Positions 42,084-55,090 of a stretch of 64,000 bases of DNA are shown here, in pieces (position 1 is the first letter of the stretch; each line of letters begins with the position of its first letter). A program made the translations under genes and the position numbers. The stretch covers positions 9,822,092 through 9,886,091 of the forward strand of contig JAJEKV010000038.1 of NCBI GenBank assembly GCA_021234155.1, given 5' to 3'. This stretch comes from Isoetes taiwanensis. Taxonomy: Eukaryota; Streptophyta; Lycopodiopsida; Isoetales; Isoetaceae. Under the pieces are notes generated by a model. It made no database searches and was not told where the DNA came from. It saw nothing but the letters and a program-made list of their open reading frames with translations.

Positions 42084-42895
42084 ACAGGTTCTGTTGAGGG
42101 AACTATAATCCGCAGCCATTTAAGAAAAGCAATGACCAAGTGGCTGCTAAACTGGCTGCTCAAAGTAATGTGACGAAGGCGAACATAGGGAATATCCTTG
42201 CCTCCCTTGCGGGTGATGCAAGCAACAATAAAATAGATTCACAAGTTAACAAGGATCTAATTGATAAGGCAACCGAGAGTGAAGGGGCCATTGGCAACCG
42301 AAGTGACTCTAGTGATTCACAGGTTTGCCAAATCAATACTAAAATAATGTCAGTTGTGAAGGACGTAGAGGAACTAATAGAAAATAACAATTCTAACAGT
42401 CAGAAGAGCACGGAGATTAAGGGTGGCGAAGGGGAGAATGACGCCGACGACGGCAGCAAAACTGAAGATGATAGGTATGGTTTTGCAGATGAAATCGCGC
42501 CACGCGTGATTTAATTTATCTTAGCTTTGAATTAAATCGCGCCAAGCGTGCTTTGATTATATTTCATTGTCATATTAAATCATGCCAAGCGCGATTTGGT
42601 TAAGACTAACTCAAATCATGCCTGGCGCGTTTGTATTGTTTGTGTGATCATATCTTGCTGACCAGATACATGTTTGATGTTTCAGCTTGCCTTGCGTTTC
42701 TAAGAAGGTTGTGGTATTCGACTTAAACGGAGTCCTTTGTAAGACTTTTCCGAAACATAAAATGACTAGAGATCAGTTTCATTAGACACCAGTAGAATCA
42801 AACACCAAGTGGATCTATCCGCGGCCGCACTTGAAGGAGATGCTAGATGAGGCATTTAGGTCATTTCGAGTCGGTATTTGATCTTTTAAAAGTGC
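42084..42895 (+). pseudogene. FCP1/NIF-type HAD phosphatase gene fragment
   Basis: The 125-codon frame at 42140-42514 (acidic, Asn/Ser-rich) has a good donor at G-A-T-A-G|GTATGG (about 42475). An acceptor at GATGTTTCAG (about 42686) joins it in phase to L-P-C-V-S-K-K-V-V-V-F-D-L-N-G-V-L. K-W-I-Y-P-R-P-H-L-K-E-M-L follows, ending F-R-V-G-I near 42876. F-D-L-N-G-V-L with a later W-x-Y-x-R-P-x-L-x-E-x-L is the FCP1-homology (NLI-interacting-factor) phosphatase pattern. The second Asp of the usual D-x-D is Asn, as in some plant members. One in-frame TAG occurs after K-M-T-R-D-Q-F-H. The frame is cut at the hairpin motif at 42881. Confidence 0.62.
42490..42640. repeat. Degenerate ~45-bp repeat, AAATCGCGCCAAGCGTG
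   Basis: Four spaced copies: AAATCGCGCCACGCGTGATT, AAATCGCGCCAAGCGTGCTT, AAATCATGCCAAGCGCGATT and AAATCATGCCTGGCGCG. They lie within the presumed intron of the FCP1-like fragment and are conserved in copy B at 62295-62440. Confidence 0.85.
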
Positions 42896-42960
42896 ATTTA
42901 AAAGATTCCTTAAAAATAATTGAATGAAGTTAGAAAAAGGCCTCCTTTTTCAAGACTTTT
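42881..42960. repeat. Hairpin-type repeat terminus, left-end type
   Basis: ATCTTTTAAA (42881-42890) and TTTAAAAGAT (42897-42906) form a 10-bp stem, directly followed by TCCTTAAAAA and AAAAAGGCC. The stem plus AAGATTCCTT mirrors the termini at 577-720 and 53860-53965. It abuts the point where the FCP1-like frame is lost. Confidence 0.4.
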
Positions 42961-43668
42961 AATTGTTAATGCATGGCAGTATAAGTTTGAGCACTTTTTA
43001 GCCTATTTTAATCATTGCACTAAATTATTGATAAATAGAAGCTTAAAATTATGCACTTTTAGTATGTCTTTTCTATCTACATGATCACTCCAAAAAAGAA
43101 CATCTTACGACATAGAAACTTTTAGAAGATTTTCGATAATGCATGAAGTTGCTAAAGAAAAATAGCATTGACAAAGGATCTTAAAGCGCATTCATCTGTA
43201 TTAAAACTTAATTTGTAGAGTTACAAGCATGCAATCGAATCATTCATCTTTAAGATTACTTAATTTGTTCACTTATAACCAAATAATCGAAGTGCTAGTC
43301 TCTTTCCAATAGTTTATTAGGACTAAATGGTTGTTCTTCTCCCTTTTCTTTTGAAAGAGTAGGATTCAAACAATAACGAATAAAAATTATCAATTTCAAG
43401 CTTCTACTAGTTGAAAGATGAATGACAAAAAACATACGGTTTAAGAATTATTCAATTAAAAGCACAACACAATTTTTAAAACAAAAAGATCACAAGCATA
43501 TTACTAAAGGAAAAAAACAATCACCAAATAAATGACAAATTAATTCACAATGATAGTTCTTAAACTTCATATCTCAAGCAAATGACAAAATAGTAAAACG
43601 ACTACCAAAGAAATAGAAATTTAAAAGGAGTTCTTAAACTTCGTGTCTCAAGCAAATGTTAAACTACT

Positions 43669-44323
43669 TCAGTAATCAATGGGTTCTTCTTCATCAGTTC
43701 CATTCTTCTCTTTCTCCTTTTCAAGGCCAATGTTTACTAAAGGAATTGTTGATGAAGCCTTAGGAGTTTCTTCAGGAATTACAGTAGCAGGATCAAGCTC
43801 TGCAAAATCAACCTCGTCATCAGGCCTACCACTAGGTGGTGGCTGAATTTCAGAGAAAGTTTCTGTTAGAGTTCCACTAAAGCTTTTGTCGCCTAACTCC
43901 TGATTTTCATCAGGCAAGGACTCACAAGAACTTATTCTTGTTTTTATAAAATTAACATTATCTGGATCAATATCAACAGAGATAACGTTTCGTCCTTTCT
44001 TAAGAGCACAAACTGCAGTTGTCCCTGATCCAGAAAATGCACCTAGCACCCAGTCACCTGGTCTTAAAAACCAACTAATAAGCTTAGAAATTAACTTCTG
44101 GGGCTTTTGATAATGTGACAATATTTGTCCCTGTCTCTGAGGATCTTTCAACTTTTGAAGCACAGCTGGATAACAAACGTTGCTTGGTGGTTGAGTTTCA
44201 TCTGTTGTGTTGTAATGCTGCATACTCCTTTTACCATCAACACTATAATATCCAATGTGGAGATGCTCAAACTTACTAACTAGACGAGCTCCACCACCGT
44301 TGCCTTTAACATTTGTTTTTATC
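43669..44323 (-). pseudogene. Copy 3, last exon: AdoMet-binding region
   Basis: The exon opens after TTCTTGCAG. In the 185-codon frame from 44223, residues 56-86 read G-D-W-V-L-G-A-F-S-G-S-G-T-T-A-V-C-A, then L-K-K-G-R-N-V-I-S-V-D-I-D (about 44058-43966). F-S-G-S-G-T-T is the AdoMet-binding loop (motif I) and the D-I-D aspartates close strand 2. Upstream V-C-Y-P-A-V-L-Q-K-L and K-P-Q-K-L-I resemble the K-P-x-x-L region (motif X) of methylases. The tail is acidic and Pro-rich. This exon is open and has no stop. Confidence 0.8.
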
Positions 44324-44388
44324 CTGCAAGAACTGAAAATCAGAAAAGTGAATTGTACATTTCAAAATGAAGATAAGATTAAACTTAC

Positions 44389-44825
44389 CACACGCAACCC
44401 TCAAAACCAGCATTGCATATTGTAGACATTGGCTTTATCACAGACATTGTTTGAACATCCGAATGAAATAAAATAATTACTCTCCAATAGGAGGAGGTGG
44501 TGACCTCTTTAAATCCTTACAGAAATGCCTCCACCTCCTTCTAAGCAAAAGCCTTGTTATCAAAGCGACTATCCTTTATATTGAAGCCATAAGGTATGTC
44601 AGCTATGCATAATGTGGTTACGTGGTTGAATTGTTTCAGTAACCTGCAGTCTCCAACTACGACTTTATATAATGCATCTTGATTGAAAAGATAGAAACTC
44701 TCAAGATCATTAGCTGATGCGGCTAGAGCGGCTTGACCTTCTGCTTGTGCTTTAAGCTTTTGCCTTTCTTCTTTACACCTTTTTACAAGGCTTAAAAATC
44801 CAGCAGGCAATCCATTGGACTTTTT
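44389..44825 (-). pseudogene. Copy 3, catalytic-motif exon with two stops
   Basis: The exon starts after GTTTCTGTAG and ends T-G-C-G-T-G-T-G|GTAAGT, joining W in phase with the next exon. A K/E/A-rich helix precedes Y-K-V-V-V-G-D-C-R-L-L, then L-C-I-A-D-I-P-Y-G-F-N (about 44600-44586). D-I-P-Y replaces the canonical D-P-P-Y of motif IV. After N-K-A-F-A come TAG and, eleven codons later, TAA in the same frame. The frame then continues V-T-T-S-Y-W-R-V-I-I-L-F-H-S-D-V-Q and I-C-N-A-G-F-E-G-C-V-W. Two nonsense changes in otherwise conserved coding DNA. Confidence 0.7.
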
Positions 44826-44938
44826 CTACAGAAACAAGTTATTCTTTAATATGAAATTGGTATATTATGAAGTTCAAATAAAACACCTTGAGAAAATAAC
44901 GCATTTGAGAACTTATCTATGAAATTTGAAGTACTAAC

Positions 44939-45361
44939 CCATTTGCTGAAGTTAGGGGCATATTCTTTTATCAAAGCATCTGTGGTTGTCAGCGGATAAT
45001 TTGCTCTGCAGTCTTCCCAAGCATCCAGGTTAAGTGCTTTCAGTAGCTCTAACTGGCAAGTTACAATATCTTTTTGTCTGTACGTAACAATAAAATATTT
45101 TTAGAACATCTCTACTGATTAATCACAAAAACAAACACCTTACTGCTTTGCTTCATTTGCCACGACTTTCTGTAGAAGATGGACTAGTAGCTCTTTGTCC
45201 TTAATTCCTTGAAGAGAAATCCAAGGAACAATAGTCATCTCCTTCACCTTAGCAGGTTCAGATAATTTCTTGCTTGCCTTAGGCGCTTTTTCCACTACAG
45301 ATTTTGTCTTTAGTTGGTTATCTTGAAACATGGAAAAACTTTTCTCTTGAAGTTCCCAAAT
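44939..45361 (-). pseudogene. Copy 3, two middle exons
   Basis: Exon 45361-45144 (after GCTTTTTTCAG) reads I-W-E-L-Q-E-K-S-F-S-M-F and H-L-L-Q-K-V-V-A-N-E-A-K. Exon 45077-44939 (after TACGTACAG) reads K-D-I-V-T-C-Q-L-E-L-L-K-A-L and A-L-I-K-E-Y-A-P-N-F-S-K-W, ending at GTTAGT. Phases agree across both introns. These are linker helices between the ParB-like and methylase parts. Confidence 0.6.
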
Positions 45362-45545
45362 CTGAAAAAAGCAAACTATTAGTGCCAGAAGTTGCCTAAA
45401 TTTCAATGCGATTCTTCAACTATCATAAGAAAAAAATGGACTGCAACGACCACAAATCTATGCACTTGTTTCGAAAAAGCAATCCGTCCTTAAGTAATCC
45501 AAATGCAGATAGTAAGCACGTGTTGATCGTAAGAATTTCAATTTC

Positions 45546-45770
45546 TAAGATTTTTTGACAAGTAAGTAATGTAACTAAGTGCACGCAGTATGAATTCATA
45601 CATTAGCTTTTTAACACAAGCAATAAACATGCCAACTTGAGTTTAAATGGGGACCTTTTGTAAGATTTTTTGACAAGTAAGTACTGTAAATGAGTGCACG
45701 CAGTATGAATTCATACAGTAGCTTTTTAACACAAGCAATAAACATGCCAACTTGAGTTTAGATGCAGACC
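45546..45770. repeat. 115-bp tandem duplication in a copy 3 intron
   Basis: TAAGATTTTTTGACAAGTAA starts at 45546 and 45661; both units end with CAACTTGAGTTTA and GGGGACCTTT or GCAGACCTTT. The second unit ends at the donor of exon 46016-45770, so the duplication reproduces the donor side of the intron. Confidence 0.92.
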
Positions 45771-46016
45771 TTTCCACTTCTGAAGGCTAGTTGAAAATAG
45801 TTGTCAAACTTTTTGAAGCACTGGGTGGGTGACAGATCACTATCATACCGGAGGCAACATTCTGTTACACAAGTTTTCCTGAGCTTTTGAAGAAGTGTGC
45901 CATTCTTTATGAAGTCTTCACCGTAGGTCTGTTCAAAGTTTATAAATTCTCGATGCATAAAACGTATCTGATCAATGAAGCTCATTTGGAGGCGGTACTA
46001 TCAACATTATGAGAAA
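45770..46016 (-). pseudogene. Copy 3, ParB-part exon downstream of the Helitron
   Basis: The frame M-S-F-I-D-Q-I-R-F-M-H-R-E-F, then N-F-E-Q-T-Y-G-E-D-F-I-K-N-G runs to R-S-G-K|gtctgc. The 31 bases between the Helitron end (46016) and the ATG encode I-S-H-N-V-D-S-T-A-S-K when joined to 49338, but are one base out of phase with M-S-F. A single-base loss in the AAATGAGC run explains it. Confidence 0.65.
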
Positions 46017-46424
46017 CTAGTATGGGTGCCCAGCGTTGCTGGGCATAAGTTGGGAGTCTCTAAATGTTTTGGTCATGCATGTTGTTGAATGGTTTTTTGT
46101 TGTTAACGAAGAAGTCCATATAAAGTATACTTTGGCACGTGGCCTTCTCTCTTCATATGCAAATGCCAGAACTATAATCATCAATTATTAAGTGATTCTA
46201 CAGGTAATTCCAATGCGGATATGTAGCATAATAACAGGGGGTTTCTTTTAGATTTTTATACGTTTTTTCACATGGTTTTTCTATGATTTCGTTGTTGTAT
46301 TCGTTGAGGTGTACTAAATAGTATTTCTAGAGTGAACCCTTTATGGGCCGTTGATTTTCGTTGGTTGGAACAATCCGAGGGTTGTTGTCTTTCTCTGCAT
46401 GTGTTTGTGCATGAACACTGCGCA

Positions 46425-46572
46425 TGTGTATGCATGTGCATGTGTGTGCATGTGCATGTTCATGTGCATGTATATGCATGTGCATGTGTATTGTGCATGT
46501 GCATGTGCAAGTGCAAGTGCAAGTGCATGTGCATGTGTGCATGTGTGTGCATGTGTGCATATGCATGTGTAC
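46425..46572. repeat. TGCATG/GTGCATG microsatellite, second copy
   Basis: An alternating purine-pyrimidine array like that at 21040-21195, with a few added GTGCAA units and a TATATGCATG variant. Confidence 0.93.
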
Positions 46573-47304
46573 TTGCCCTCTTGGATTCTTATTGCGAGTG
46601 GATTTTACTACCCACGAGATGGATTTTTGCTCACACTTACAAAGGTATTTGTTTTTAATGTTTCTTGAGTTAGCATAATGTTTTTTTTTTTTTTTACAAG
46701 GTATTGGTTTCTGATTCTACAATGTAGTGCTGCAAAACCTCCTTTTGTTTCCTTCCTAAGATTTCTTGCATGATTCAAGTTTAGGCCCTCTGTTTGCTTC
46801 CAACTCTTGGATATTCTTGGCTTAGGATTCTTTATAGCAGCCCGACCTTTAATCAACAAACGGATTCTTATGCACTGTAGCAGGATTATTCCCGCCTTTT
46901 TCCATGTCATGCTTGAATCAGTCAAAGCAGTGACCACAAGAATGCATTTATATTGTAGGAATGGAACTTTAATCGAACCATAAGGTGAATCATGCATTAC
47001 CTTTAAGCTAGAGATGGAGCATCAAAATCATATGGATTGATAAACAATGGTGTCATTGTGAAAAGAGAAATAGTTGTAAGCGGAAGTAACAATATGTAGC
47101 ATAATAACGAGGGGGTTTTCTTTGTGTTGCAAACTTTATGACTTTCAGAATAATGGATCAATCTGCTCTATCTTTATGGTAACTTTTACTTATGTTCTAT
47201 TTGTTTTATTGTGATCAAATTCAAAAGCTACAGGTGATGAAAGCCTCAAATGAATTCTAGTTTTTCTGGTTTGAATTCTAAAATTTTTTGTCACACAGGG
47301 GTGG

Positions 47305-47945
47305 CGTCCTAAGGCCCCGAAGGGGCCAATTTTTTTTGCAACACAAACCATTAACATCCAACATATAAAAATTAAATCTCCCAACACATAACAACCAACA
47401 CATAACAACCATTGACATTAACAACCAACACATAATTACCATTGACATTAATTAACACAACCATTGGGTCCAACACATTTAAATTAAAATCCCCCTTAAA
47501 CCCCTTTGGTTTGGGTGCATATTCACCACGGGGGTGGCGTAGAGGCGGCAGAGCCCTCATAATTGTATTTTGCACGTATGAAATCAACATCATATAGTAT
47601 TCTGCTTGAAATCTTATAGTATTTTGTGAATATTAGTATACAGTATAGCAAATTTTGTACTTGCATACCCCACAAACGAGGAACTTTACGTACGATATAG
47701 ATTAAGGAATAAGGAGTGAATATGCCTATCCAACAGCTCTCGTTGCCCGGAGTCACCCCCCGTGTGAATATGCACCCAAACCAAAGGGGGTTTAAGGGGG
47801 ATTTTAATTTAAATGTGTTGGACCCAATGGTTGTGTTAATTAATGTCAATGGTAATTATGTGTTGGTTGTTAATGTCAATGGTTGTTATGTGTTGGTTGT
47901 TATGTGTTGGTTGTGTTAATTAATGTCAATGGTAATTATGTGTAG
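47305..47945. mobile_element. Foldback / MITE element, copy M4
   Basis: The unit starts with AAGGCCCCGAAGGGGCC (47310) and has arms TTTGGTTTGGGTGCATATTC (about 47505) and GAATATGCACCCAAACCAAA (about 47766-47785), with ACGAGGAACTTTACGTACG in the middle. GTTGGTTGTTATGTGT repeats lengthen its right arm. Confidence 0.85.
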
Positions 47946-48654
47946 TTAGTTTCTAGGTCTCCTTTTTTAATAGGCAAAGTACATGTACATCAAAGCGGAT
48001 GAGCATTCCAAGCAGCTAAGGAAATTTAATGTTAATCTATGTTAATGATTGGTGCGCGTCTTAAGTCCCAAGAAATTCAGTTTCCTTAGAAGATAGTTTG
48101 TCTCACAACTATTTAATATTATGACAACCTTTCTAAATTAAAATTGAAATCAAAAGTTCATATATGCATGGATATAAGACATTGGAAATTTATGCCCATC
48201 TGATCCTTCAACTTTGGAAAAAAATGCAAAAGATGCGATTTCTATCAATTCTTAAAGAATATCTTAAAATCCCTGTTGATTACAATAACATTTACATTTA
48301 TTTATGCCCTTCTAGAATTTGATGTAGTCTTGTTTTGTTCAACGTGCATTGTACATAACAATTTGTTTGCAGCCATTTTCTGACATTTGTTTGAGCAAGC
48401 TTAGAAAGGAATATCCTTCTCCAATATTGACATTTGTATTGCGAGAATTATTATAATTACTCCCCTGCACTATAACCTTATTCAATGTCATGCCAAACTT
48501 GTTTACATATGTTGCACATGCTCCTGGCAGCTCTCCTATGTTTCCAGCTTTCTCGGGCATTTTAAAAGAAATAACATTGCAAAGAAAAACTATGCCGCAC
48601 CGCTTCACATTAATAACTTTGTTTCTACATGAACAATGCTCTCCTTTGGACAAG

Positions 48655-48731
48655 CTGCTATTGCATGCAATTACTGGCCTTCCTGCTGCCATTCCTTCAA
48701 GTGGAACAATGCCAAAGTGCTCATCTTGCCA
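48655..48731 (-). pseudogene. ALG2-like glycosyltransferase exon fragment in Helitron-1
   Basis: The minus frame reads D-E-H-F-G-I-V-P-L-E-G-M-A-A-G and R-P-V-I-A-C-N-S. E-H-F-G-I-V-P-L-E-x-M-A-A plus P-V-I-A-C-N-S is the conserved nucleotide-sugar-binding segment of ALG2, the alpha-1,3/1,6-mannosyltransferase of the dolichol pathway (GT4). It normally continues G-G-P, but here the frame runs on into unrelated sequence (S-L-S-K-G-E-H). About 25 codons remain. Gene-fragment capture is typical of plant Helitrons. Confidence 0.7.
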
Positions 48732-48929
48732 ACAACAATGTAAATCTTGTTCATAATAACTGGATTTCAAGAATATGAGTGAGTCCCAAGACCATTCATC
48801 ATTTTTTTATAACTGCAAGACAATATGCAAGAAGGTTATTTCTTTGAGAGATTGAACATGAATAAATGAACATAACATGCTCATCTATTCCACTTTCAGA
48901 AGCTAGCATTGTAACATAGCAACCCCCCC

Positions 48930-49200
48930 ACATCAAAATCTGGCTCCCTTGGCTCAGAATCCGACTGCCTTGGCTTAGAATCCGGCTGCCTCCGCTAATA
49001 CAGCTGCTCCTGTGCAAAATCCGGCTACCCCAGTTTTGGGCAGCCCCTTGGCTCAATCCGGCTGCCCCTGTTTTGGCTGCTCCCTGCTCTATGGCTTTTC
49101 GCCCTGGGCTGCCAAATCTCATAGCCATGCCGCCCTGCTCAAACCCAGCCGGATCTACCTCAGCCAGATTAGCTCCCGCCTCCTGCCCTGCCGTGAAGAA
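48930..49200. repeat. Degenerate AATCCGGCTGCC repeat
   Basis: Short GC-rich units (AGAATCCGGCTGCCT, CAAAATCCGGCTACCCC, CTCAATCCGGCTGCCCC) repeat about every 21-30 bp within Helitron-1. One + strand frame gives a Pro/Ala-rich peptide, without evidence of expression. Confidence 0.75.
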
Positions 49201-49337
49201 AAACCCTAAAGAAAGGTAAGTTCGAAGAAGAGGGTTTTTTTTTAGTTAAATCATGGCCGTCGAACTTCTAGACCAAATCTGGACCGCCCAATTTAGGGCA
49301 CGATGCACTACTTACACCAAAACATTATAATATAAGA

Positions 49338-50083
49338 TGGCTAGAACTTTTGCTTCTTCATCAGTTAGACCAACATAAACCTTAGCTTCCTTTCCAAGCA
49401 GGATTTTTGCTGTCTTCTTTCATTAGTTCCTTTCTTGCTTTGTAATTGTGTGTTCCACCCAACACATAATACCGATAGTACTCAAAGTCAGCCTTATTGT
49501 ACTCTTTTAGAGATGTACATTGATTTGGGTCAACCATAACAATCATAGGAGTGACTACTGCTTCTTGGTTAGCCCTCATTCTATCTTTTAGAATGTCAAC
49601 GCGTGAAGCATATAACTTCCTAACTTGCAGAGACCTTTGTCCAGAAGCATCTTTGGGAGGTCTTTTGATTGTGGCTGTAGAGAGCCTCATCGTGTCAACA
49701 ACACGCTTGGTAGCATTGACATGATTCAACAGCTTTGTGCTCCTATCAACTTCCTTGCTTTTAATCACACATCCAGGAGCTCTTTTCTTCTCCTTGCGCA
49801 CTTCTGATCCCTCAATGCATTGTACCTTCCTTTTTCTTTGCACAACAATTTCTTTGACATAATTTCTTTTGTTTTTAAGCAAGTCCATATCCAGTGCTCT
49901 ATCTAATTCTCCACCATCATCTCCCTCCTCTTCCTCTTGACTGCTTGCTTCTTCGTCTTCTTCCCCACTCAATTGTTCTTCTCCACTTTTCACTCCCTCT
50001 GATTCATCATCGGGATAGACTTTACCTACCTTTAGTACTGCTGAAGTATAAGCCAGAACACTTTGGAGGATATCAATAATATC
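49338..50083 (-). pseudogene. Copy 3, linker and ParB-like exon
   Basis: After TTGTGCAACAG the exon reads D-I-I-D-I-L-Q-S-V-L-A, an acidic tract (about 50000-49890) and a basic tract (Q-R-K-R-K-V-Q, R-K-E-K-K-R-A-P-G; about 49850-49770) that looks like a nuclear localisation signal. The ParB-like core follows: V-T-P-M-I-V-M-V-D-P-N-Q-C and Y-Y-V-L-G-G-T-H-N-Y-K-A-R-K-E-L. Near 49395 an indel in an A run shifts the frame. The good reading then is L-L-G-K-E-A-K-V-Y-V-G-L-T-D-E-E-A-K, then V-L-A before the Helitron. G-L-x-D-x-E-A and the later H-N fit ParB-family proteins. Confidence 0.68.
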
Positions 50084-50147
50084 CTGTTGCACAAAGTTAT
50101 TAGTTTCTTGAATATTAAAGTAAACAAACTTAACTGGCAATACTTAC

Positions 50148-50528
50148 AAAAGTTTTAACACCGGCACGGATGTACTCTTTCAAATCAGCAGGAAAACACA
50201 ATACCTTCATGAAAACACTGCTTACAACAATTATGCTCTCTTTACCAGCGCTAACTATCCGAAATACCACTTGGTTTGCAAAATCATTCCCTCTTGCACT
50301 GAGAATTCTTCCAGGGACATAAAAGTCATCCTTCTTTAAAGTTTCTCTGCCAGAGATGGCTGCTGTCCAAAGAAATAAGTTGTGCGGATGCTTGTCTTGG
50401 AATCCTCTAGAAAGAAACCATTGGTGATTTAACATTTTGTATCCTTCGTCAACTTCTCCAGAAGGATTTTTAAACTTCATTTTAGAACAAAGTTTAAAAT
50501 GAAACGCACTAATTTGCTCAAAACGCAC
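50148..50528 (-). pseudogene. Copy 3, first recognised exon (N-terminal domain)
   Basis: The frame contains K-M-L-N-H-Q-W-F-L-S-R-G-F, D-D-F-Y-V-P-G-R-I-L-S-A and V-V-F-R-I-V-S-A-G-K-E-S-I-I-V-V-S-S. It ends F-P-A-D-L-K-E-Y-I-R-A-G-V-K-T-F|gtaagt. It looks like a folded alpha/beta domain of about 120 residues that I cannot name. The ATG at 50528 overlaps the repeat terminus at 50484-50560. K-M-K-F-K-N-P (about 50480) is an alternative start, so the true 5' end may lie farther up. Confidence 0.5.
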
Positions 50529-50560
50529 TTCAAAAGGAATCTTTGAAAGATTCCCTAAAA
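50484..50560. repeat. Repeat terminus with short palindrome at the 5' edge of copy 3
   Basis: TTTAAAATGAAACGCACT at about 50490 is inverted near 53942-53963. GGAATCTTTGAAAGATTCC (50536-50554) is a palindrome with a single central base and shares AAAGGAATCTTTGAAA with 675-690. This can be the right end of an element containing copy 3 (42881-50560) or the left end of a 3.5-kb element (50484-53965); I cannot decide. Confidence 0.45.
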
Positions 50561-51040
50561 TCCCCCCAAAAATGTCCCTTTTTGTGGTATATTTGTGACA
50601 AGTGTGACAATTTGAAAATTTTAGGCATCATTTTGGAGGGGGGTGTGAACTTAGCTTCCATTCAAAATTGTTTGACATCCCTTTTTGGCCCCCCTAGTTT
50701 GGTTTGCGAAATAGTAATATTTTCAAAAACTAAACAAAATAGACATTGAAAAAAAAACATTAACTAAAGTGCCAAAAAGGTATTTTATTCAAAGTTTTTC
50801 AAATCATTACAAAACTATGAACAAACCGTAAAAAAATGCAACACATTTTGACATTGCCTCATTGAAGCAAACATTTTCACATGAAAGTATGCCTCATTGA
50901 ACAAACTTACACTTTAGGCATAAGTTGGGTCGAAGGCGCTGGCTCTTAAGTCTTTATACTTGCTCTTATTTGCTCATCCGTCTTGCTATAGACTTATGTA
51001 TACCACGATGACAAATGCGTGGACATAACGTCTTCAAAAT
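50561..51040. other. No gene seen
   Basis: AT-rich sequence with only a shadow-like 68-codon frame. Confidence 0.4.
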
Positions 51041-51445
51041 AAATTACGGGTGGTATAGATTTATACCACAATAGGTAGTCTTTGTCGCGGATATGACATG
51101 CCGGAGAGTTAGCATGGGTATAAATTTATACCAAAGAGGACTTCGGCGGTATAAATTTATACCGAGAGCTCTCTCGATTCTGCGAGAGCTCTCACGGTAT
51201 AAATTTATACCGTGAGAGCTCCCTCGTTATACCACGAGAGTTCTCTCGGTATAAATTTATACCGCGACAACTCTCTCGGTATAAATTTATACCGCAGAAA
51301 ACCTTCAGACAACCAATTTATACACATATATGTGTATATATATATATATAATATATACACATAATTACATATATATATCCGACAAGAAAAGAGAACTCTT
51401 GCGGTATAAATCTATACGGAGAAACGGTATAAATTTATACCGAAT
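51040..51445. repeat. Array of CGGTATAAATTTATACCG palindromes
   Basis: Exact or near copies of the 18-bp palindrome lie near 51050, 51116, 51149, 51196, 51248, 51277, 51403 and 51425. Between them CGAGAGCTCTCTCG-type inverted repeats occur. Related single copies appear at about 54945, 54990 and 55070. No gene lies across it. Confidence 0.9.
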
Positions 51446-51514
51446 TGCATATATATATAAGACTTTTATCTACTCTATATATGTTCTTATGTTTGTCGCG
51501 CTTATCCGACCGTC

Positions 51515-51775
51515 CGTTCGAGATCCGACGGCTCACGTGGCTTTGGGACGTATCCTATGGCCCAGATGGCTTGGGAGTTTATATATAATCCGTATAGACG
51601 CGATCCTACGGTCCAAAGTTGATCGATCCTAATCACGGTTCGAGATCCTACGGCTCACGTTGCTTGGGGACATATCCTACGGTGCACATGGCTTTGGGAA
51701 TTATATGTAATCGATCCTACGGTCCAGATTGATCATAATCCTTGGTCCAAGATCCTACGGTTCACATTGGATGCT
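51515..51775. repeat. ~107-122 bp tandem repeat, 2-3 units
   Basis: TTCGAGATCCGACGGCTCACG (51518), TTCGAGATCCTACGGCTCACG (51640) and CCAAGATCCTACGGTTCACA (51748) start successive units. GGACGTATCCTATGG, GGACATATCCTACGG and GATCCTACGGTCCA recur inside. Confidence 0.82.
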
Positions 51776-51835
51776 CGGGCTTTGGTATTTTCAACAAATG
51801 TTAAAGAAAGGCTTTTAAAAGTTTCTATGTTATGG

Positions 51836-51903
51836 GGAAGATTCGAACCCTGGTCATTAACCCCCAACCCCCCCATTCTAACCACTAGACCAAGCATTAA
51901 TTC
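51836..51903 (-). mobile_element. tRNA-derived SINE head
   Basis: On the minus strand GCTTGGTCTAGTGGTTAGAA is a good RNA polymerase III box A context, and GGGTTCGAATC about 45 bp on is a box B. A run of G replaces the anticodon arm, so it is not a functional tRNA. The body probably continues toward 51770. Confidence 0.65.
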
Positions 51904-51959
51904 TATGGATAATTTATGTTTCAAATATACTTAAGGGTAATATTCTAATTAAGATAAAA

Positions 51960-52690
51960 TAGAATATAACATTTTAGATAGTTCAAGAAAGTTCTAGAAT
52001 GTTCTGGAGGCTTTAGAAAGTTCTAAAATCTTTAAGAGAATCTAGGAAGAATCTAAAAGAATCCTTCTAGAAAGTCCCAAATTGTTCTAATAAGTTCTAG
52101 AATAGGGGAATCTTCGGGAATGTAAGGAAATAGGGAAATACTTCCAGAAAGTTCTAGGATGTATTGAAAGTTTCAGAATGTTCCAGAAAGTTCTAGAATG
52201 TTCTAGAAATTTCTAGAATGTAAGGGAATCCAGAAGAATTAAAGGGAATCTAAGGAAATCTCATAAATTGTAAGGGAATCTAGGAAGATATTTACAACTC
52301 TAAGGGAATCTCTTAAAATCTAGTTGAATCTAAGGGAATCATCATAATATCTAAGGGAATCTAAGAAAATCTTGATGAACTTAGAGTTTTTTTAAGATTT
52401 TGCGAAGAGCCACAATAGAATGTTCTAAAATGTTTCACAATAAAGGTGTACAATATAAATCTTGAAAAAAAAAATGTTCTAGATGCTCAGGGTAAGCGCC
52501 TTAGTCTAAAAATAGAAAGTGTTTTAGAAATGTTGCATAGATCCAAAATAGATTATTTTGGAAGGTTCTAAATGCTCATGGGTAAGCACCTCAATCAAAA
52601 TTGAAAATTCTAAGAGAATCTAGGGGAATCTTCATGAATGCTAAATATAGTACATAGAATGTTGAAGAATATAGAGGAATCACAAGAGAA
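51960..52690. repeat. GTTCTAGAA / GGAATCTAAG satellite with HSE-like arrays
   Basis: About 700 bp of loosely repeated GTTCTAGAATG and GGGAATCTAAG units. At 52181-52220 four successive 10-bp units TTCnnGAAnn are perfect; 51982-52004 gives TTCAAGAAAGTTCTAGAATG followed by TTC. Alternating nTTCn/nGAAn blocks are the heat-shock-factor binding pattern. No gene is adjacent. Confidence 0.8.
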
Positions 52691-52699
52691 TCTCAGTAG

Positions 52700-53860
52700 G
52701 ATCATCGATTACCTAGAGCACGACAGGGCCTTGCACCGTAAGAACATGCTAAAATTGGAACATGCACCGTAGGACGTGTTAAATTTCTTGTATATATATG
52801 TATATATATATATGCAGTCCAGATATAAAGTATATATCGTGTAAAATCTTTTGGGGTCTTTCTTGCTCGCCAAAGGGTTTGGCAACTGAAAACTACTAAA
52901 GTAACACACATAAGGGATAATTTTACACACTGTTCTTAGTTTTTTAGTCTAAAAAGTTCTAAAACGGTTCTAAATTTTCTGAGCTTATAATGCAATGTTA
53001 GAGCATAAAGTAGTCGAATCATGTTGTTATTTCTACTTTTTTTCTCTACATACATGCGAACTTCACTCCAGGCAGTTAAAAAATTGCTACTAAAGGCAAA
53101 TAACTCCAAAATATTATGGTGACACAGGTGTTTGACTAGAAGGAAACCACATGGTTTATCCAGAGGAGAGCGAGGAGTAGCAACCCCTCAGAAGTTTACC
53201 CATTTATTTACAAAAAAAATATAGGAAAGGGTAAGGCGACGAATACTTCACCGCGGAGAGAAATGTGCATGGTGCCCATTGCTCTGAGATGATGTAATTG
53301 TGATGAATATGCTCAACATTGCTAAGGAGGTTGACTATCTTTTGAGCATCACCATGTTGTAGATTGGTACATGTTCGGAAATACATCTCGAGAATAAAAA
53401 GGAGGGCATGTAATCACATGGCTTCATTACTTCAACTTTTGTATCCTCGATTATAAATTTATCTTTGCATCTTCAACTAAAACTTCAAATTTTAACTACA
53501 AGACATCGTGGATGTATTGGTATTTGTAATACTATGTAATGCAAAAACAATGGTTTGTCATTCAAGAAGTTTGTTCAACTGCCTCCCAATGTGTTTTAGG
53601 GTCCATTAGGATGTTCAGCCAAAATGGTTGTGAAATAACAAATTTCCTGCCTTCTAAAACAGCTAATATAAAAACTTTCAGAGACAAGGTACAAAAGCAT
53701 CTAATTTCTTCATACGAATTTGCCCCATAGTCAATCTTTGAATTTCATTGTAGTTCTTTCCCCCTCTACAATGGGATTTTTTTTTGTGTGTGTTTTTCCT
53801 TAATATTAAGTCTTCTTAAAATGTCTGTTTTCACGAGCAGTTTTATAAATCTTTGGACTA
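52700..53860. other. No supported gene
   Basis: AT-rich with a (TA)n tract near 52795-52815. Short ORFs at 53204-53386 and 53539-53730 show no motif. Confidence 0.4.
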
Positions 53861-53965
53861 AAGGTAATAAAAGGGCCCTTTTTAGAGGGATTTTAGAATT
53901 TTATAAATTTTCAGAAGGAATCTTCCAAACGCACTTCTTAAATAAGTGCGTTTCATTTTAAACCT
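53860..53965. repeat. Hairpin-type repeat terminus, right-end type
   Basis: AAGGAATCTT is followed by a 10-bp hairpin (AAACGCACTT at 53927-53936, AAGTGCGTTT at 53944-53953). It has the same layout as 675-715 but a different stem sequence. The outer TTTCATTTTAAAC is the inverse of GTTTAAAATGAAA at 50489. Confidence 0.55.
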
Positions 53966-54000
53966 TGTTTTAGGCGTTTTACTGCACAACAAAGCTTTTA

Positions 54001-55090
54001 TTATGCAACCAATTTGCAGAAAATATTTTATTATGCAACGAATTTGCAGAAAATATTTGATTCAACAAAAACCAACCAAGTGTTAGAATTAATCATCAGA
54101 AGTCCTTTTGTCAGAACAAATGCAGAACAGCTACTAAAATCTGCAGCAAAACTGGCCGATTCTTGGAGCTTCTAGTTACTTTGCTCTAAGAAACTAATTT
54201 TCATTAATGTTTTCATCACTTTTCTGTCAATTTCCTTGTGTGTACACCAAAATATCTACTCTTATTAAGTACAAAGATGTGTCAAAATAACAGTGATTCG
54301 GCTTATTCTACTACCAATTTTGCTATTTCTACAGCAGATTTTTCTGATTCTACAGCCAATTTTTCAACTTCTCAGCCGATTTTTCAATTGTTCATGTCTG
54401 GTTGCTGAGTCCACTGAAACTATTGCTGATTTTTCTATTCTACAGCCAATCTTTCCACTGTTCAGGTCTGGTTTCAAAAGAGCGGCAGATTCTGATCTAT
54501 TTGATTATGCTCTTGGAGAACGATTTTTCTTTCTGCAAAACCGATTTCCCTTATGCTCTTGATTCATTCCTGGCATAGAACAAATTCACTTTCTTCAAGA
54601 TCGATTTTCCTTTCTGCAAAATCGTTTTCTCTTTCTGCTTCCAAGTTTTGGATGATCATCAGGTCGATTTTGGCCGTTTCTGTTCTTATCGCTTTTGAGG
54701 ACGTTCAGAACATTTGAGGACGTTCAGATCATTCGCTTTTGATAACGATTTTGTCGATTCTGCTCTTGTTTGAGGTCGGTTTTGCACTTATTTGAGGTCG
54801 ATTCTGGCCGATTCTGCTCCGTTAGCTTTTGTTGGCCAACAACGTCCAAAATGCTAGCAAAGATAAAAAGCTGCAATTTTTTAGTGACAAAAAGCCATTG
54901 AAATATTTATTGAAGGATAGAATTTTGAGAAAGAAAAGTAACCCGTATAAATTTACACCGCACAACTTTTTTCCTTCTAACTTAAGACGGTATGAATTTA
55001 TACCATCATCTACTTCTTAAGGGTGTCAATGACTTAAAGTTGTGCTAGTAAACATTCAACAAGACATGATGGTATAAATTAATACCACCG
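54001..55090. other. No supported gene; short repeats
   Basis: ATTATGCAACCAATTTGCAG and ATTATGCAACGAATTTGCAG form a 30-bp tandem pair (54001 and 54031). 54300-54830 is a degenerate run of GATTTTTCTGATTCTACAG-like units. Single GGTATAAATTTATACC-like palindromes lie near 54945, 54990 and 55070. ORF 54293-54562 is repeat-derived. Confidence 0.5.

Follow-up and report, generated by a model that had tools for sequence, protein, structure and literature searches.

The closest relative in kind of the gene considered here lies in the Ectocarpus element Sola1-1, where a ParB-methyltransferase gene (1104 aa) occupies the opposite strand and its product is proposed to bind the very transposon that encodes it and to modify the DNA there; red and green algae are also mentioned there with such transposons (PMC12477816). 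As the closest working analogue, we regard VANC, which is encoded by the VANDAL elements (PMC5735166). In this study, we compare with these systems a gene found on the minus strand (43669-50480) of a 64,000-nucleotide stretch, called the window throughout, of Isoetes taiwanensis contig JAJEKV010000038.1. This gene, in an assembly of 1,658,258,908 bases in 1110 contigs, is an interrupted pseudogene copy, and we are almost certain that the ParB-methyltransferase gene it derives from is a transposon gene.

Like the Ectocarpus element, the one in Isoetes is a DNA transposon with an opposite-strand gene for a ParB-like part joined to an N4-cytosine/N6-adenine methyltransferase, though the former is described as a 21.5-kb Sola-1 element (PMC12477816), whereas the latter measures 8.5-9.5 kb, has a DUF7869 partner gene, resides in a vascular plant, and occurs as three subfamilies. 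The searched text describes no binding-site arrays for the Ectocarpus element (PMC12477816). Both VANDAL and Isoetes elements pair an element-encoded protein with subfamily-specific arrays of short motifs that lie in noncoding parts or introns and change with the protein; however, VANC, which causes methylation loss, is described neither as a methyltransferase nor as having palindromic motifs, and we claim no homology (PMC5735166). The fungal TET/JBP transposons likewise carry an enzyme that modifies DNA, as a presumed means of evading silencing, but theirs is a dioxygenase acting on 5-methylcytosine (5mC) and without ParB, while the Isoetes enzyme is of the amino-methyltransferase type (PMC12730594). 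Lastly, the bdelloid N4CMT and the Marchantia N4-methylcytosine (4mC) enzyme are also N6_N4_MTase-type proteins of eukaryotes, the rotifer one being permuted, yet both belong to the host, the rotifer gene adding a chromodomain and the Marchantia one no further domain, in contrast to a transposon gene with a predicted ParB fold (PMC8885841).

For a closer view of the element, four long copies were cut out with their flanks, two from the A subfamily (near the window copy) and two from the main family (M), with C being the third of the subfamilies sampled. Intact elements are 8495-9548 bp long (9466 bp for A copy C1034A and 9548 bp for C1037A), and homology ends abruptly at terminal inverted repeats of about 30 bp, which read AACAA(A/G/C)GTT...CGCACT.. 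or a variant thereof. Perfect 4-bp target-site duplications (TSDs) flank the four full copies (AAGT, CCTT, and, in the A copies, CTAC and CAAT), as well as four non-autonomous elements (AGAA, TTGG, TCTT, and TTAG), thus all eight copies examined. The element therefore has both the inverted repeats and the fixed-length TSD of a class II DNA transposon. Sola transposons have a 4-bp TSD too, though this agreement is a weak pointer, since other superfamilies share the same length. Genome-wide, M-type ends with no more than one mismatch number 925 and 938, against none for the reversed control. Moreover, there were at least 150 scored matches each for PF01555 and for the ParB-like exon, these being the best 150 of 1444 and of 2561 candidates, respectively, both of which are rough numbers. 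We conclude that this is a cut-and-paste-type DNA transposon with two genes and very many copies in the genome.

The two genes, one for the ParB-methyltransferase and one for a DUF7869 protein, diverge from a common intergenic region. Among the best 150 matches of each domain, enzyme and DUF7869 occur as pairs within 12 kb in 22 cases versus 0.33 expected, and 20 of these pairs are divergent, with spacings mostly of 4.9-6.2 kb. DUF7869, a family without a described function, is matched by the leftward protein with an E value of 5e-54 and was not found in the literature searched. The place of the DUF7869 protein in the element, together with acidic strings that it conserves (IDGMD, QLDN, and GHTHDQ), points to it as the likely transposase. 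As a separate observation, its C-terminal part (L055:8343-9998) and exon 1 of the enzyme each contain beta-rich-looking segments (FWLAKVLDV...LKVHW; DDFYVPGRI) that have no Pfam match and recall chromatin-reader barrels by eye. Downstream of a C-type enzyme gene, an incomplete open frame (L059:8230-8988, minus strand) resembles this C-terminal part and possibly belongs to a neighbouring element.

In intact copy C1036, the enzyme gene has six exons, with GT-AG introns that are mostly GTAAG...TTACAG, and is spliced into 934 open residues. An earlier, sequence-only reading of the window had described a bacterial-type ParB-methyltransferase gene with introns, and the three strings on which it relied are indeed found in the order given, all in minus-strand open reading frames (ORFs): VDPNQ...GGTHN in 49382-50143, DIPYGF in 44541-44825, and FSGSGTT...DID in 43669-44361. 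The introns are real, insofar as intact copies splice their exons into one open frame, but the large supposed intron at 46017-49336 is an insertion in exon 2, and an intron reading of the sequence beyond 50486 likewise fails, as another element (50486-53969) is inserted upstream of the ATG. From the N-terminus onward, the enzyme is laid out as an unmatched domain, an acidic linker, the ParB-like fold, helices, motif IV (D(I/L)PYGF), and motif I (FSGSGTT). Motif IV thus precedes motif I, the order of a permuted amino-methyltransferase, and both motifs are kept in intact A, M, and C copies. As the earlier reading had anticipated, PF01555 matches the last exon in the window (49.5 bits, E value of 7e-13), and it matches an intact copy with 58.3 bits and an E value of 1.4e-15 (cut-off of 26.7 in both cases); the phage methyltransferase profile phrog_67 also matches the enzyme (E value of 3.7e-23). 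The second position of motif IV is I or L, rather than the P of (D/N/S)PPY, and DxPY in this motif favours N6-adenine over N4-cytosine as target. Hence, the enzyme is a predicted N6-adenine or N4-cytosine methyltransferase, with DxPY suggesting the former more.

In a sample that favours open frames, the pooled ratio of nonsynonymous to synonymous polymorphism (pN/pS) is 0.14 for the ParB exon in M, and 0.146 (M) and 0.097 (C) for the last exon. Values in A are higher (0.36-0.43), as expected because these come from a small set of recent and partly dead copies. The enzyme gene is under purifying selection. As for its source, no relative of the ParB exon was found in viral contigs and only one of the methyltransferase part (at 28%), the patterns tried against 84,980 prokaryote genomes brought up no relative, and the best phage records reach about 33-40%, over a portion of the methyltransferase half. 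With no close viral or prokaryotic relative, no donor can be named.

To assess the first half of the enzyme, an AlphaFold model of exon 2 was built from 14 aligned copies, and VIA-align was applied to the ranked list that Foldseek returned for it. Here, ParB, Noc, KorB, and PadC fill the best 13 rows (Z of 6.9-9.4 over 90-140 residues), followed by sulfiredoxin, with the top superposition giving a Z of 9.4 and 2.9 Å over 101 residues. In addition, two phage ParB profiles weakly touch the GGTH region (E value of 0.07). When alignment A1 was run as a profile against solved structures, the best matches were at chance level, including sulfiredoxin with an E value of 2.5.

The elements also carry arrays of palindromes. 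Strings that recur in six-frame translations as RYKFIP/GINLYR are a 16-bp palindrome, GGTATAAATTTATACC, in M. All three subfamilies share the frame GTAT-N6-ATAC around a core of their own (AAATTT in M, GAATTC in A, and TCCGGA in C), which makes a palindrome of 14-16 bp. This frame is found 278 times at M loci versus 2.8 expected, 46 versus 1.9 at A loci, and 31 versus 1.0 at C loci, and the subfamily core accounts for 268 of the 278, 34 of the 46, and 16 of the 31 (plus nine with TCCAGA), respectively. Conservation drops within a few bases beyond the palindrome in M, but extends to AAAGTGTATTCCGGAATACACTTT in C. Overall, the stretch that is conserved measures at least 14-18 bp. Genome-wide, there are 7218 exact M 16-mers (reversed control of 0), 64 A 14-mers (control of 11), many of them at known A copies, and 2075 forward C 19-mers (control of 0), counts that track family size.

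Near copies, taken as up to two mismatches over 14 bp in four elements, number 23-27 per M element and nine per A element, and none of the 68 overlaps an exon, though 60-68% of the element is coding. In M, the sites lie in the divergent promoter region, in enzyme introns 1, 2, and 5, and just past the stop codon, whereas in A they lie in the promoter region and intron 2; they are never in the putative transposase gene and not at the element ends. Moreover, two C clades near synonymous saturation (pS of about 0.7-0.78) retain the same palindrome. Three short non-autonomous elements (about 2.2 kb, with TSDs AGAA, TTGG, and TCTT) share only the ends and the array with autonomous M, which argues that the array acts in cis.

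Two further features of the palindromes were noticed. Variants of the C type are mostly TCCAGA/TCTGGA/TTCGGA (L003-L008, L059), the products expected from CpG deamination at the TCCGGA core, which suggests that the core CpG may be 5mC-methylated by the host. In the non-autonomous elements L060, L061, and L062, many palindromes recur every 30-32 bp or so, close to three turns of the helix, a spacing suggestive of binding on one DNA face.

We consider that the enzyme is probably encoded by an accessory gene with which a cut-and-paste transposon marks itself or counters silencing, our best-supported reading. That the palindromes are bound by the ParB-methyltransferase also seems probable, because of the co-variation of palindrome and protein subfamily, the position of the arrays, and the analogy with ParB. 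Here, the ParB-like part and the helices after it would bind the subfamily palindromes, much as bacterial ParB does with 16-bp parS palindromes, and the bound enzyme would methylate adenine in or near the arrays. The mark would label the element as self, countering host silencing or tuning the divergent promoter, much like VANC on VANDAL arrays, and non-autonomous elements may borrow it by keeping the array. The fuller version, in which the ParB-like protein would read a subfamily palindrome and write N6-adenine or N4-cytosine methylation on its own element, with at least three address codes, falls just short of an even chance in our estimation, while amino-methylation at the arrays that would relieve silencing or act in regulation is a tentative view, with rather more doubt than belief.

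Several results weigh against this reading. PF02195 had been put forward as a profile for the first half, but gave no match there, nor anywhere in the genome at E≤1. The exon 2 model is confident only in its core (mean predicted local distance difference test (pLDDT) score of 53, with 97 residues at 70-90), Foldseek itself returned no significant match with the ParB-like model, and the helices past the fold gave no convincing helix-turn-helix match. Furthermore, GxxRR, the cytidine triphosphate-binding motif of canonical ParB, is absent, with the corresponding stretch being GGTHSYKAR or GGNHSFKAR in the alignment. Isoetes and bacterial ParB/parS would have in common the ParB-N fold and clustered palindromes of about 16 bp, but in addition to lacking PF02195 and GxxRR, the Isoetes system has no ParA and is fused to a methyltransferase. 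We accept a modelled ParB/sulfiredoxin fold, yet do not place the protein in the canonical ParB family, because PF02195 fails and GxxRR is missing. The proposed ParB-methyltransferase fusion thus stands by PF01555 and by structural comparison, though not by the PF02195 profile. As for the other components, the DUF7869 protein model (pLDDT of 34) is too poor for a DDE fold test, turnover of repeats, instead of selection, might be what keeps the arrays uniform, and the co-variation between palindrome and protein amounts to very few independent events, as only three subfamilies were sampled.

Among other explanations, the arrays might serve the DUF7869 transposase as an internal binding site or enhancer, with the methyltransferase acting elsewhere or on any DNA. 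That non-autonomous elements keep ends and array is what a mobility requirement in cis would predict; still, the palindromes are internal, away from the ends and the transposase gene and around the methyltransferase exons, and a unit of 14-16 bp would suit a ParB-type dimer site, so we find this unlikely. More improbable again is that the methyltransferase itself recognises the palindrome and marks it, whether to repress its own gene or, as in restriction-modification, to shield the DNA from a nuclease, with the ParB-like part only aiding dimerisation. The cores GAATTC and TCCGGA do resemble type II sites, and the enzyme, through PF01555, belongs with the restriction-modification methyltransferases, but the conserved unit is far longer than such enzymes read, and no nuclease gene is seen in the element.

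A functionless passenger gene would account for the broken state of the window copy and several others, though hardly for the low pN/pS of M and C (0.10-0.15), nor for catalytic motifs kept across subfamilies that are saturated at synonymous sites, and it is given very little credence. The sequence-only reading had favoured an ancient acquisition adapted to the nucleus, and its call of bacterial-type domains in an intron-bearing eukaryotic gene holds. However, a single bacterial gene captured by the plant is refuted for this copy and extremely improbable overall, as the gene is one of a very large repeat family, as it rides a DNA transposon that has inverted repeats and TSDs along with a divergent DUF7869 partner, and as the window copy is dead. 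Nothing was found in favour of an assembly artefact or bacterial contamination, which the same reading had named as what might overturn it: copies sit on many contigs tens of Mb long, have spliceosomal introns, and are nested among other repeats, insertions with target duplications refute an artefact, and the patterns tried against the prokaryote genomes gave no relative, leaving a negligible likelihood.

Regarding the window locus (Table 1), the A element has lost both of its ends, stopping at 42884 on the 3' side and missing its 5' (putative transposase) side beyond 55089, and is interrupted twice by inserted elements. The copy is a pseudogene that would make no full enzyme, because of a Helitron-like insertion in exon 2, a transposon before the ATG, two in-frame stops in exon 5 just past motif IV (a TAG that is TGG in relatives, then a TAA), and loss of the motif I Asp (VLGAFSGSG in place of VLDAFSGSG, i.e., Asp to Gly). 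The ParB-N structural match for exon 2 was obtained on the exon of an intact A copy. The 3.3-kb insertion, which lies between A and T, appears Helitron-like from its ends, a hairpin (GCCCAGC..GCTGGGC) and a CTAG 3' end. The TTAG duplication of the nested element reads CTAA on the gene strand, and its ends are 84% and 98% identical to those of M element C1036M (blastn).

Table 1. Features of the A-subfamily copy and of the elements inserted into it, in window coordinates.
Feature	Position	Strand	Basis
A-subfamily two-gene transposon remnant	42884..55089	-	blastn against intact C1034A and C1037A, 91-95% identity over main blocks
Exon 1, N-terminal domain without Pfam match, ATG at 50480	50148..50480	-	reading frame, GTAAGT donor at 50147, counterpart exon in intact copies
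Exon 2, first part, acidic linker and ParB-like fold (VDPNQ, GGTHN)	49337..50083	-	92% identical to intact A copy (alignment A1)
Helitron-like insertion splitting exon 2	46017..49336	-	relatives contiguous at that point
Exon 2, second part, end of ParB-like domain and next helices	45770..46016	-	ORF 45758-45997; joined to first part in intact copies
Exon 3	45144..45361	-	comparison with intact copies, frame/edge check
Exon 4 (5' edge approximate)	44939..45078	-	comparison with intact copies, frame/edge check
Exon 5, catalytic motif IV DIPYGF (3' edge approximate)	44389..44825	-	ORF, alignment
Exon 6, S-adenosylmethionine (AdoMet)-binding half, motif I FSGSGTT, through stop codon	43669..44323	-	PF01555 match, alignment
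A-type palindrome GTATGAATTCATAC, intron 2	45588..45601	.	palindrome search
A-type palindrome GTATGAATTCATAC, intron 2	45703..45716	.	palindrome search
Palindrome-array remnants, intergenic promoter region of A element (54945, 54990, 55072)	54945..55085	.	palindrome search
Nested non-autonomous M-family relative, 3484 bp, just upstream of ATG	50486..53969	+	inverted repeats, TSD TTAG
Array of eight M-type palindromes GGTATAAATTTATACC in nested element	51053..51440	.	palindrome search

Some smaller details of the locus are also visible. Helitron-like ends (hairpin GCCCAGCGTTGCTGGGC, then CTAG on the other strand) occur twice in the window, at the exon 2 insertion and at about 55091, where they mark the cut-off of the A element's 5' side. 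Within the insertion, an inverted pair of about 165 bp with 96% identity (47370-47921) is likely a small nested repeat. An inverted pair, AAACGCACTT...AAGTGCGTTT, lies inside each element end (e.g., 50486-50545 and 53915-53969), which would allow the terminal repeat to fold into a hairpin.

The idea of such an enzyme in a transposon is already known from the Ectocarpus report (PMC12477816), whereas the occurrence in a land plant, the DUF7869 partner, and the palindrome arrays appear new, no description of them having turned up in the papers searched. ParB-methyltransferase genes recur in transposons of very distant algae, and the Isoetes arrays give candidate binding sites for the self-marking idea. 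They offer three natural specificities for comparison, with the non-autonomous elements as natural deletion tests. There is a warning here as well, in that methyltransferases listed as horizontally acquired in plant annotations may be transposon genes. If the self-marking reading is true, plant transposons would write a mark other than 5mC by way of a bacterial-style pair of protein and palindrome, a counter-silencing route that we have not found described.

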